A stretch of 64,000 nucleotides of DNA, taken from NCBI RefSeq assembly GCF_025149465.1, contig NZ_CP102275.1, positions 248,001-312,000 of the forward strand, written 5' to 3'. The notes beneath the pieces are model-generated. The model was not told the origin of the DNA. It worked only from the letters and a program-made list of their open reading frames with translations, and did no database searches. This document shows positions 34,895-38,893 of the stretch, in pieces (position 1 is the stretch's first letter; each line of letters begins with the position of its first letter). The position numbers and the translations under genes are program-made. The DNA comes from Thomasclavelia spiroformis DSM 1552 (GTDB taxonomy: Bacteria > Bacillota_I > Bacilli_A > Erysipelotrichales > Coprobacillaceae).

Positions 34895-34936
34895 TATAAA
34901 AGCTAAAGGAATCAATTTAATCCTTTAGCTTTTATA
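34895..34936. terminator. Bidirectional terminator between merR and clpP
   Basis: A 16-bp perfect stem (TATAAAAGCTAAAGGA and its complement at 34921-34936) surrounds a ten-base loop. The clpP stop codon lies within it. Confidence 0.85.
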
Positions 34937-35504
34937 TTATTTCATCAATTATACCATAGACTAAAGCTTCATTGGGTTCTAGAAAGTAATCGCGATCGGT
35001 ATCTGTAATTATTTTTGATAATGGTTGATTTGTATTTTTGCTTAAAAGTTTATTTAATTTTTCTTTTTGTTTTAGAATCCTTTTGGCACTGATTTCAATA
35101 TCACTGGCTTGTCCTTCGAATGCTCCAAGTGGTTGATGAATCATGATTTCACTGTTTGGTAAGCTACAACGTTTCCCTTTTGTACCAGCACTTAGCAAAA
35201 AAGCGGCCATACTTGCAGCCATGCCAATTACAATAGTCGAAACATCACACTTTATAAAATTCATAGTATCATATATAGCCATACCGGCATTGATACTGCC
35301 ACCTGGGGAATTTATATACATATAGATATCAGCACTGTTATCAATTGATTCCAAATAAAGAAGTTGACCAACAATACTACTTGCCATTTTGTCATCAATA
35401 GTGCCAGTTAATAAGATAATACGATCTTCTAGCAATCTAGAATATATGTCATAAGCATATTCACGTTGATTTGTTTTTTCAATAACTGTTGGAATTAAAT
35501 GCAT
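34932..35504 (-). CDS. clpP: ATP-dependent Clp protease, proteolytic subunit
   Basis: The 190-residue serine protease forms the tetradecameric degradation chamber used by ClpX or ClpC. The triad is visible as Ser98 ([11 protein letters not shown]), His123 (MIHQPLG) and Asp172 (DTDRDYFL). [15 protein letters not shown] is the conserved oxyanion region. GGAGG precedes the ATG. Its upstream region (35505-35654) is AT-rich and holds no clear CtsR box. The gene originally lay back to back with gapA before the IS insertion. Confidence 0.95.
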
Positions 35505-35654: not shown

Positions 35655-35764
35655 GAGATATTTGTAGATAAAAGTACTAATAGTTTTACTTTATGATAAA
35701 AAGATAAATTTTTTAAATGAAAACCGTTTCATTAGTTGCTTTTCTTCAATTTCTGGAATATAAT
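35655..35764. repeat. 110-bp direct repeat, left copy (target duplication)
   Basis: This sequence is identical base for base to 37732-37841. It contains a copy of the gapA promoter (TTGCTT 35736-35741, TATAAT 35759-35764) and the ATGAAAACCGTTTCAT element (35717-35732). It abuts the left end of the IS1634-like element, so it is the left target-site duplication; the promoter copy now points into the element against its transposase. Confidence 0.9.
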
Positions 35765-35787
35765 CCCGTCTTTGACAGTTGTAAATA

Positions 35788-35835
35788 TAAAAAAATCCAT
35801 AAAGTATTGAATATATCAGCACTTTTTGGATTTTT
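35788..35835. terminator. Hairpin at the 3' end of the IS transposase
   Basis: AAAAAATCC-ATAAAGT pairs with ACTTTTT-GGATTTTTT with a small bulge. T runs on both strands suggest a bidirectional terminator inside the left end of the element. Confidence 0.6.
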
Positions 35836-35859
35836 TCTTTTGTATTGAATATGCGTAAA

Positions 35860-37593
35860 TTATCTGATTTTCGTATTTTTTATTATATTTCTCATTTTTT
35901 TCTTTCCAATTATCTCATAATCCGTTCTAAAACCGAACAGCTGATGAAGTTCATCCGTTATCTGTGTTCTTTTATATGCTGGTATATAACCGTTATACTG
36001 GGTATCTATCACTTCCATTTCTCTTAGTGTTTTCAATATTTCATTTACTGTGTATTTATTTTCCAGTTTATCTGCCAATAGCCTATAAATGATCAATGAA
36101 ATAAAACATGTGAGAAAATGCGCCTTGATTCTTTCTTTGTTCTGTAAATATACCGGTCTTGCTTTGAAATCTGTTTTCATGATTCTGAAGCATTCCTCTA
36201 TCTGCCATCTTCTTTCTGAAACCTTGATGATCTCATTTACATTGTCATCTTCAAGATTTGTAGTAATGGCATAAAATCCATCATACATCTCTTCTTCATG
36301 AATTTTTTCGTGATTTAATGCAAAATATTCTTCTATGATTTCACCGTTTTTGTCAGTTGTATGTTTTTCAATAAATCTTGCAGGATCATTTGGATTCTTT
36401 CTGTTCTTTTTCAATTTTCCTTTTTTATTTATCATCCTGCTTGCGCGTTCGATCTGCCTGTTTCTTATTTTCTTTTGATAGCTTGCATATTTAGGTGAAT
36501 ATGTAATGATAAGTCTTTCCTCTAAAGGACTTTCCAAGGGCATTTCCTTATAGAATATCCTGTTTTGGTTTTTCTCGTCGCTGAAATCGATCTCATCAAT
36601 ATTGATCCTATGACTGTTTTCAACACCGATTTCATAGAAACCGCTATGTTTTAATGCAACTTCCCTGTCATCCTTTTTGAGTTTCTTCAGTGACTGAGTG
36701 ATGATATATGCTCTATCCTGTATGCTGTTGAATTTCTTGTTGGTTTTAGAGGCAAGACCGGCATCACTGCAGTAAATGAATTTTGAAAGTTCAAAATCCT
36801 TGATAATTCTTTCTTCAAGAGGCTTCAAGGTTGTCTGTTCGTTCCTGTTTCCTTCATATAGATCAAAAGCCAATGGAATACCATCTCCATCCATCATAAG
36901 TCCCATACCTACAACTGGATTAGGTCTATTTTCTTTGCTTTTACCATATTTTCTGAAATCATCATCATCTTCAATTTCAAAATAGTAATTAGTGCAGTCA
37001 TAATATAATGCACCGGTATTTCTTGTTTTTATAAAATGGCTGTTTTTATAGAGTTCAGACTGAATATAGTCAGATTCTTCTGCCAGTACAGACAGAGCCC
37101 GATAAACATCGTGAAGCTCATATTTAGTTTTTTCTAACAGAGTCGAAGAAAACTCATAAGAAGAACGCTTGCTTGAAGGACATAGAATCCTTGAATAAAT
37201 CAGATCAGAAAGAACAGCATTGATATCATAGCTGAACTGGTGCCGGTTTTTTATATTCCTGCAGATATTATCGAGGCGGAGCTGATAATAAATATACTGA
37301 AGAAAAAGGTAGCCGCAGTTAAATTTTCTTTGAACGTCCTTATCGATGATTCTGGTAGGGACAAAGGGGATGATAGTATCCTGATTGATGTCATTGTCTT
37401 TGACAGTCAGTTCCTTAGCATAATTCTTTGCCCAGGTAATGACTTCATCTCTGGACATGTTTTTTTCAGAACAGAGATCTTCGATCTTACCAAGCTTTTG
37501 ATAAATTTTAGTAGTACGGGAACCATTATTATAAATATCCCTGATAATATAGATAAATTCATGATTTTTAGATTTGGAAATATTGATACGCAT
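35860..37593 (-). CDS. IS1634-family DDE transposase
   Basis: The 577-residue protein matches IS1634-like transposases of the IS4 superfamily. Visible blocks are LYYDCTNYYFEIE-DFRKYG (first catalytic Asp), FIYCSDAGLAS (second Asp) and YDGFYAITTN followed by SERRWQIEECFRIMKTDF, which carries the catalytic Glu. It cuts and joins DNA at the element ends. ATG 37593 is placed by GGAGG just upstream; the longer frame back to 37725 would include the terminal repeat. The frame is intact and the duplication is perfect, so the element may be active. Confidence 0.92.
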   Translation of the reverse strand: MRINISKSKNHEFIYIIRDIYNNGSRTTKIYQKLGKIEDLCSEKNMSRDEVITWAKNYAKELTVKDNDINQDTIIPFVPTRIIDKDVQRKFNCGYLFLQYIYYQLRLDNICRNIKNRHQFSYDINAVLSDLIYSRILCPSSKRSSYEFSSTLLEKTKYELHDVYRALSVLAEESDYIQSELYKNSHFIKTRNTGALYYDCTNYYFEIEDDDDFRKYGKSKENRPNPVVGMGLMMDGDGIPLAFDLYEGNRNEQTTLKPLEERIIKDFELSKFIYCSDAGLASKTNKKFNSIQDRAYIITQSLKKLKKDDREVALKHSGFYEIGVENSHRINIDEIDFSDEKNQNRIFYKEMPLESPLEERLIITYSPKYASYQKKIRNRQIERASRMINKKGKLKKNRKNPNDPARFIEKHTTDKNGEIIEEYFALNHEKIHEEEMYDGFYAITTNLEDDNVNEIIKVSERRWQIEECFRIMKTDFKARPVYLQNKERIKAHFLTCFISLIIYRLLADKLENKYTVNEILKTLREMEVIDTQYNGYIPAYKRTQITDELHQLFGFRTDYEIIGKKKMRNIIKNTKIR

Positions 37594-37731
37594 AAAAGAC
37601 CTCCAAAATATATAAATATTATAACACAAGATACGAAAAAATACGATATAAAATAACAAAAAAGTTGACAAAAAAATAAAGCATCTATCAATGCTTTTTG
37701 AATTTTTTTCAATTATGACTGTCAAACTCCC

Positions 37732-37841
37732 GAGATATTTGTAGATAAAAGTACTAATAGTTTTACTTTATGATAAAAAGATAAATTTTTTAAATGAAAA
37801 CCGTTTCATTAGTTGCTTTTCTTCAATTTCTGGAATATAAT
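37732..37841. repeat. 110-bp direct repeat, right copy (target duplication)
   Basis: Identical to 35655-35764. This copy lies directly upstream of gapA and ends exactly with the TATAAT of the gapA promoter, so gapA keeps a complete promoter despite the insertion. Confidence 0.9.
37794..37841 (+). promoter_or_regulatory. gapA promoter with cre-like operator
   Basis: TTGCTT (37813-37818) and TATAAT (37836-37841) are 17 bp apart. Directly upstream, ATGAAAACCGTTTCAT (37794-37809) has six-base palindromic arms and differs from the catabolite-responsive element consensus at one central base. CcpA control of glycolysis is possible. Confidence 0.65.
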
Positions 37842-37876: not shown

Positions 37877-38893
37877 ATGGCAGTAAAAGTAGCTATTAAT
37901 GGATTCGGACGTATTGGACGTCTTGCATTCAGACAAATGTTTGGTGCTGAAGGATATGAAGTTGTTGCAATTAACGACTTAACAGATCCAAAAATGTTAG
38001 CACACTTATTAAAATATGATTCAGCACAAGGTAGATATGCATTAGCTGATACAGTTGAAGCTGGTGAAGGATCAATCACTGTAGATGGAAAAGAAATTAA
38101 AATCTACGCAGAAGCAGATGCTTCTAAATTACCTTGGGGTGAATTAGGTGTAGACGTAGTATTAGAATGTACAGGTTTCTATACTTCTAAAGCTAAATCT
38201 CAAGCTCATATCGATGCAGGAGCTAAAAAAGTTGTTATTTCTGCTCCAGCAGGAAATGACTTACCAACAGTTGTATTTGGTGTAAATGAAAACATCTTAA
38301 CTGCTGATGATACAATCATCTCTGCAGCATCTTGTACAACTAACTGTTTAGCACCTATGGCTAACGCTTTAAATAAATTAGCTCCAATTAAATCAGGTAT
38401 CATGTTAACAGTACATGCTTACACTGGAGATCAAATGGTATTAGATGGACCTCATAGAAAAGGTGATTTAAGAAGAGCACGTGCTGCTGCAGTTAACATT
38501 GTACCTAACTCAACTGGTGCAGCTAAAGCAATCGGATTAGTAATTCCAGAATTAAATGGAAAATTAATCGGTTCAGCACAACGTGTACCTGTTCCTACAG
38601 GATCAACTACTATCTTAACTTCAGTTGTTGAAGGTGAAGTAACAGTTGAACAAGTAAATGCAGCTATGAAAGCAGCAACTACTCCATCATTTGGATATAC
38701 TGAAGAACAATTAGTATCTTCTGATATTATCGGAATTACATATGGTTCTTTATTTGATGCAACTCAAACTATGGTTAAACCATTAGATAACGGAACTACT
38801 GAAGTTCAAACAGTTGCTTGGTATGATAATGAAAATTCATACACTTCTAACATGGTTAGAACAATTAAATATTTTGCTGAATTAACTAAATAA
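37877..38893 (+). CDS. gapA: Glyceraldehyde-3-phosphate dehydrogenase, NAD type
   Basis: The 338-residue glycolytic enzyme oxidises glyceraldehyde-3-phosphate to 1,3-bisphosphoglycerate. The Rossmann start is [14 protein letters not shown], the catalytic cysteine is Cys153 in [13 protein letters not shown], and Asp34 (INDL) indicates NAD specificity. The codon use is more biased than that of its neighbours, as expected for a very highly expressed gene. ATG 37877 follows AAGGAGG; the upstream in-frame start at 37853 has no SD. The IS insertion lies just upstream, but its target duplication preserved the promoter. Confidence 0.98.

Follow-up and report, generated by a model that had tools for sequence, protein, structure and literature searches.

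An IS1634-family insertion sequence duplicates the gapA promoter of Thomasclavelia spiroformis and belongs to a clade that probably targets sigma-A promoters

Results and discussion

Organization of the gapA locus

The window analysed here is a 64,000-nucleotide stretch of the Thomasclavelia spiroformis DSM 1552 genome (NZ_CP102275.1, positions 248,001 to 312,000). An insertion sequence lies between clpP and gapA, flanked on both sides by a copy of the gapA promoter. The features of the locus, in window positions, are as follows.

34932-35504, minus strand: clpP, the native neighbour of gapA, which it adjoins in 8/8 congeners
35656-35764, plus strand: left copy of the duplication, 109 bp, a gapA promoter copy now directed into the element
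35736-35741, plus strand: -35 box TTGCTT of the element-facing promoter copy, read in the sequence and conserved in congeners
35759-35764, plus strand: -10 box TATAAT of the element-facing promoter copy, directly next to the element
35765-37732, minus strand: IS1634-family insertion sequence, 1968 bp, from the repeat edges, the profile match and a second copy
35765-35779, no strand: terminal sequence on the transposase-3' side, CCCGTCTTTGACAGT, the end that meets the -10 box
35860-37593 (stop included), minus strand: DDE transposase, 577 aa (NF033559, Pfam DDE_Tnp_1, Tn5-transposase fold)
37718-37732, no strand: terminal sequence on the transposase-5' side, reverse complement CGGGAGTTTGACAGT
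37733-37841, plus strand: right copy of the duplication, the promoter that stays with gapA, from the repeat, the second copy and the congeners
37813-37818, plus strand: -35 box TTGCTT of the promoter kept by gapA, from the sequence and the congeners
37836-37841, plus strand: -10 box TATAAT of the promoter kept by gapA, from the sequence and the congeners
37877-38893, plus strand: gapA, type I glyceraldehyde-3-phosphate dehydrogenase (TIGR01534, 409.7 bits), downstream of the duplicated promoter

A repeat search of the window found positions 35655-35764 and 37732-37841 to be identical at 110/110 bases. This match is not due to chance, since exact matches arising by chance between flanks of this kind are at most about 10-16 nt long. 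The G at 37732 is the last base of the right end of the element (CTCCCG), and the flank of the second copy of the element is without that G. It is therefore assigned to the element, which occupies 35765-37732, and the duplication is 109 bp long (35656-35764 and 37733-37841), or 110 bp if the one ambiguous shared G is included. A single transposase gene lies on the minus strand between the two repeats. The motif TTTGACAGT is found at both ends of the element, at 35771-35779 and, as ACTGTCAAA, at 37718-37726. This inverted-end core holds an inward-pointing -35 consensus, TTGACA, and is common to many, though not all, element types. The duplication stops exactly at the last T of TATAAT in the TTGCTT-17-TATAAT promoter upstream of gapA.

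The original prediction, made without database searches, had proposed identical 110-bp flanks, imperfect element ends with a shared sequence, and a duplication that ends just after the gapA -10 box and leaves gapA its promoter. All of these held, the first with a correction to 109 bp plus one shared G.

Assignment to the IS1634 family

The transposase scores 365.9 bits against the NCBIfam IS1634 profile NF033559 (cut-off 100), upholding the predicted IS1634-like identity, and contains the Pfam domain DDE_Tnp_1. Residues D199, D277 and E466 are invariant among 14 aligned relatives and, judging by their position, are inferred to be the catalytic DDE residues. The predicted fold (mean pLDDT 82.6) is IS4-like, as in the family, and resembles those of the Tn5 and piggyBac transposases in Foldseek, the best match being Tn5 transposase 1muh (E 2.5e-6); a PDB sequence search with the transposase returned nothing below E 0.3. 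With a length of 1968 bp and ends CCCGTCTT and CGGGAGTT, the element meets the family criteria of a size of 1500-2000 bp and C-----YT ends (PMC2266710). The 5-6 bp direct repeats typical of the family are not met (109 and 338 bp at the two copies in this genome), but such repeats are typical rather than defining, and IS1634, the type element, also carries long repeats. The trait of IS1634 and IS1549, long repeats that vary between copies, is met, with 37-831 bp over the 90 insertions described below. So is the trait of the promoter-targeting clade proposed here, a transposase-3' end just after a sigma-A -10 box, at both the gapA and tyrS copies. The element is thus an IS1634-family insertion sequence.

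Empty sites in related genomes

In 8/8 congeneric genomes (G001-G008), clpP lies beside gapA with one copy of the promoter and no element. The TTGCTT-17-TATAAT promoter is conserved in the congeners compared at L176-L178, and at L180 the -35 box reads TTGCAT; the remaining spacer sequence has drifted among them. As all congeners have a single promoter copy, the second copy arrived with the insertion, and the 109-bp repeat is a target duplication made at that time, as had been predicted. Long exact repeats can also come from recombination, and it might be argued that the repeats were present before the element or are themselves products of recombination between repeats. This explanation is practically ruled out by the single-copy empty sites in 8/8 congeners, none of which is an uninterrupted relative with two copies, and by the finding that 90/90 insertions duplicate locus-specific sequence exactly abutting the element ends.

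Other copies in the same genome

A second copy, the same at all 1968 bp, lies at G000:C1:1647313... in this 2,528,470-bp genome. The perfect 338-bp duplication around it takes in the 3' portion of a GNAT acetyltransferase gene and ends after TTGACT-17-TATAAT, the promoter of tyrS; a T-box leader begins 3 nt further on, followed by tyrS itself (L008). A third element, with 32% protein identity, lies between perfect 254-bp repeats that end in TATATTA. In all three, the -10-like sequence is at the same element end, on the 3' side of the transposase gene. The duplications of the other copies are therefore long and variable (338 and 254 bp) rather than short and constant. The insertion at gapA had been predicted to be recent, which agrees with 100% identity within each of the two duplications and between the two element copies. 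Broken remnants of more IS1634-type transposases are present at G000:C1:1012146-1012367 and 1036112-1037147.

A wider sample of insertions

The search for related insertions covered 9 genomes of the genus, 43 of the family, 294 drawn from the order and 392 drawn from the phylum. In the host's own order, 92 transposase records gave 63 insertions in 20 element types with recognisable ends, 57 of which were scored. The other 29 of the 92 records were dropped because they belonged to a short-repeat branch, were truncated, lay at contig ends or had no readable long repeat, and 6 of the 63 had no scorable duplication (L142, L143, L146, L162, L163:255085 and L164). A second set came from a separate scan of named genomes, with 80 loci, mainly from Lachnospiraceae. 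Of these, 26 lacked 600 nt on both sides, leaving 54; 17 of the 54 had no repeat of at least 25 nt and two (L196, L243) no standard end, so that 35 were scored. Two of the 35 were already in the own-order set, leaving 33 distinct insertions and a total of 90. Element ends were set by the repeat edges and the common terminal C, not by the -10 box, and the register reported below is therefore not fitted to TATAAT.

Not counted in the junction statistics are L115, L102, L024, L098, L262, L266 and three copies in G445. Among these, L115 (TTGACG-16-TATAATA) and the G445 copies (TGTTATAA) match the pattern described below, and L102 is displayed from the opposite end.

Over the 90 distinct insertions, the duplications range from 37 to 831 bp, with a median of 119.5 and quartiles of 85.5 and 186. 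No helical periodicity was found in their length at periods of 9-12.75 bp, including 10.5 bp.

The near junction is a sigma-A promoter

The end of the element on the 3' side of the transposase gene, here called the near junction, is where the -10 box is found. A match of at least 5/6 to TATAAT at the fixed register is present in 39/57 insertions of the own-order set (20 exact; background 1.4%, p 6e-59) and in 28/35 of the named set (12 exact; background 0.9%, p 1e-50), or 26/33 once the two duplicates are removed. Such a match ends at the junction in 53/90 and one base earlier in 16/90, with 0-6 cases at each of the other offsets between -30 and +18; the one-base shift comes mainly from elements whose ends are of the CCTGAC type and whose cut falls one base later. 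In the original prediction the gapA promoter figured only as a feature of this one site, but such a promoter at the junction is the rule for the clade. Junctions with fewer than 5/6 matches to TATAAT at the fixed register number 18/57 and 7/35, and among them L147-L149 and L166 have no recognisable promoter.

The hexamer is accompanied by other promoter features. At sites carrying a TATAAT hexamer of at least 5/6 at the junction, to which the spacer counts were confined, matches of at least 5/6 to TTGACA occur at spacers of 16, 17 and 18 in 5, 11 and 2 cases, against 0-2 at each of the remaining spacers between 8 and 29. The controls for the -35 box and for TGn were intergenic TATAAT-like hexamers from the same loci. 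A -35 match of at least 5/6 is found in 14/28 sites of the named set (controls 33/831, 4.0%) and, as a modest excess, in 4/39 of the own-order set (controls 79/2686, 2.9%; p 0.029); TGn is found in 13/28 (controls 51/831, 6.1%) and 13/39 (controls 173/2686, 6.4%), respectively. The TTGACA carried in the element ends was considered as a source of the -35 signal and is not supported, with a -35 match of at least 4/6 in 9/28 sites without it and 9/29 with it.

The surroundings are also those of promoters. A same-strand ORF start within 300 nt in an intergenic setting is found at 38/56 sites in the order (against 9.6%) and 25/35 in the named set (against 10.8%), and the excess in gene orientation persists when only intergenic hexamers are compared (38/52 vs 127/341; 25/33 vs 83/193). 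The sites lie outside ORFs of at least 100 aa in 52/56 and 33/35 cases, compared with about 25% of control hexamers. At some sites without a nearby ORF, the junction is followed on the expected strand by a T-box, at 3 nt (L008, tyrS) or 18 nt (L208), or by a tRNA, at 77 nt (L218), 47 nt (L244), 45 nt (L247) or 38 nt (L051). An RNA scan of 19 loci placed a T-box or tRNA directly downstream in four (L208, L218, L244 and L247), and a second scan of 19 loci found such an RNA directly downstream in one (L051). On this sequence evidence, and in the absence of transcription data, the near junctions are real promoters and not hexamers alone.

Three rival explanations of this pattern can be weighed against these data. 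In the first, the transposase itself reads TATAAT or TGnTATAAT without any RNA polymerase, and promoters are struck only as carriers of the motif. In its favour, no other signal is nearly as strong as the hexamer, most target preferences of insertion sequences are of this sequence-reading kind, and the related Mycoplasma branch favours TTTT (10/21), as if target taste evolves in the transposase. Against it, the -35 box at a spacing of 16-18 and TGn exceed intergenic controls (14/28 vs 4.0%; 13/28 vs 6.1%), and the orientation excess holds within intergenic hexamers too. We consider this explanation unlikely. The second rival, a preference for easily melted, superhelically destabilised DNA in which the -10 box is merely the weakest spot, is less likely still. 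The -10 boxes are AT-rich, the T-tracts of the Mycoplasma branch would fit, and duplex destabilisation has been associated with IS5 hotspots (PMC5493358), but the single-base register (53 + 16 of 90), the fixed orientation and the peak in -35 spacing would not be expected. The third holds that insertion is random and that survivors are seen only where promoters are spared or kept. Selection too would place sites mostly outside ORFs (52/56, 33/35), but it can neither fix the junction one base after the -10 box nor prefer promoter over non-promoter intergenic hexamers, and we regard it as virtually excluded.

Two cases bear on repeated use of a site. L072 and L077 (G009) join the same nucleotide of a repeated target sequence with duplications of 97 and 161 bp, and are independent insertions with different far ends. 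At L051 (G027:C1:950500-968500), two different IS1634-type elements have inserted one after the other at one -10 box, the later one in the promoter copy already facing the first element. This nested insertion suggests that the element-facing copy there is still recognised as a promoter.

Little sequence preference at the far junction

At the far ends, a TATAAT match of at least 5/6 is found in 1/57 insertions on one strand and none on the other. The first base past the duplication is C in 25/40 elements of the CGGG/CCC type and in 5/17 of the other type. This terminal-base C is the sole signal, and the far junction is otherwise nearly free in sequence. The native C at this position matches the terminal base of the CGGG/CCC-type elements themselves.

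A proposed promoter-targeting clade

When 72 transposases were placed in a tree, a branch with support of 98/96 set the 56 promoter-targeting rows apart; the Mycoplasma-type long-duplication rows adjoin this clade and six short-repeat rows fall outside it. Some branches are long, leaving the deep joins unsure, and rows were labelled by branch, not each by its own junction. The short-repeat sister branch in G094 has 6-bp repeats, TATTAT and ATACTG, read directly in two copies, and the same genome also carries promoter-type copies with duplications of 54-167 bp.

Of 37 Mycoplasma-type copies taken (L282-L318, genome family f5), 21 were usable, with duplications of 21-253 bp. Their near junction has TTTT just before the same element end in 10/21 (background 3.0%). 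Since these copies have long repeats but favour TTTT over TATAAT, long duplications do not need promoter targeting: the taste for a -10 box marks one clade, and long duplications are more widespread. Targeting of intrinsic terminators by the Mycoplasma-type elements was considered and rejected, as hairpin energy did not differ from controls (p 0.70, 0.67). A few of the sites do resemble terminators, with no overall enrichment of hairpins.

A model for insertion

The geometry of insertion can be read directly. The transposase-3' end is joined directly after the -10 box, at about -7/-6, or one base later where the ends are of the CCTGAC type. Upstream of this promoter, at a distance of 37-831 bp, lies the joint with the other end, and the intervening stretch is duplicated. 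As a result the downstream gene retains a complete promoter together with its upstream DNA, the element is directed away from the gene, and the sequence places a second promoter copy facing the transposase gene from its 3' side.

We think it likely that this IS1634-family clade targets sigma-A promoters, probably by way of the state opened by RNA polymerase; the polymerase step is inferred, without transposition data. Guidance by polymerase is inferred, only indirectly, because a correctly spaced -35 box and TGn matter beyond the hexamer. In the proposed mechanism, the transposase would locate its site through RNA polymerase that is bound at the promoter or has opened it. Strand transfer would begin on the template strand of the promoter, within or next to the bubble, and would then take place on the other strand wherever upstream DNA comes close; such a two-site attack would yield a long, variable duplication. 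The polarity of DDE strand transfer would place the joint between element and target on the template strand at -7/-6, within the stretch that is melted in the sigma-A open complex. The predicted transposase fold itself gives no sign of polymerase contact: when a polymerase-binding domain was sought with Foldseek, the matches of useful score were all transposase or integrase folds. Transposases of the IS1634 family are able to bind the replication sliding clamp (PMC4549789), and coupling to replication is therefore not excluded.

Insertion of this kind is likely to be nearly harmless to the neighbouring gene, an inference from the arrangement described above. It is also possible, though again only inferred and without transcription data, that the captured promoter restrains the transposase by antisense transcription. 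The original prediction had the second promoter firing into the element; sequence cannot decide this, and the nested L051 case is the lone hint.

A bolder reading is that a large clade uses host sigma-A RNA polymerase as its target finder, that the duplication is both a by-product of two-site attack and a safety device that re-supplies the whole promoter, and that the spare, element-facing promoter may silence the transposase by antisense transcription. Taken jointly, these three propositions are in our judgement as apt to be wrong as right.

Relation to known systems and significance

IS1634 of Mycoplasma mycoides and IS1549 of Mycobacterium smegmatis have transposases of the same family and long, variable direct repeats. 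Their repeats of 8-514 bp are exceptions to the family norm of 5-6 bp, and a 2008 review of the family stated that no mechanistic model had yet been proposed for variable duplications (PMC2266710); the bearing sections of that review state no promoter or -10 targeting. Ordinary members of the family such as ISGka5 and Acidiphilium IS1634-1 are alike in transposase, ends and size, but differ by having repeats of 5-6 bp, as with the 6-bp direct repeats of ISGka5 (PMC8024623) and the three 6-bp repeat sequences given for an IS1634-family element (PMC4549789). In E. coli, insertion of IS5 near promoters has been tied to DNA opening (PMC5493358), but IS5 belongs to another family, and the abstract of that study describes neither a single-base link to the -10 box nor promoter-duplicating repeats. 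In yeast, Ty1 and Ty3 target the transcription machinery where insertion does little harm; they differ in being eukaryotic, in using RNA polymerase III and in their short target duplications. Targeting of -10 boxes or promoters by IS1634-type elements is unreported in the open-access literature that we searched; the original IS1634 and IS1549 papers lie outside it, and an earlier mention is possible.

The larger point beyond the gapA site is promoter targeting by, in all likelihood, a whole clade of the IS1634 family. The asymmetry of the junctions, with one end at the -10 box and the other free upstream, provides a concrete model for duplications that have been known for decades, and explains how the elements can spread beside essential genes (gapA, tyrS, tRNA genes) without switching them off. 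If true, this would give bacteria an example of a transposon that seeks out the basal transcription machinery. For gut bacteria that have been little studied, the duplication edges are a natural record of where sigma-A promoters lie, and if the mechanism holds, a promoter-targeted insertion tool could follow.

Atypical copies

A related element in G445 (L319-L321) cuts after TGTTATAA; one of its three copies has a -10-like sequence at the transposase-5' end, and the two ends of this element are nearly alike. In G094, two promoter-type copies (L158, L159) have been enlarged to 3.4 and 5.2 kb with extra internal DNA, and their outer duplications, of 120 and 167 bp, are still perfect.
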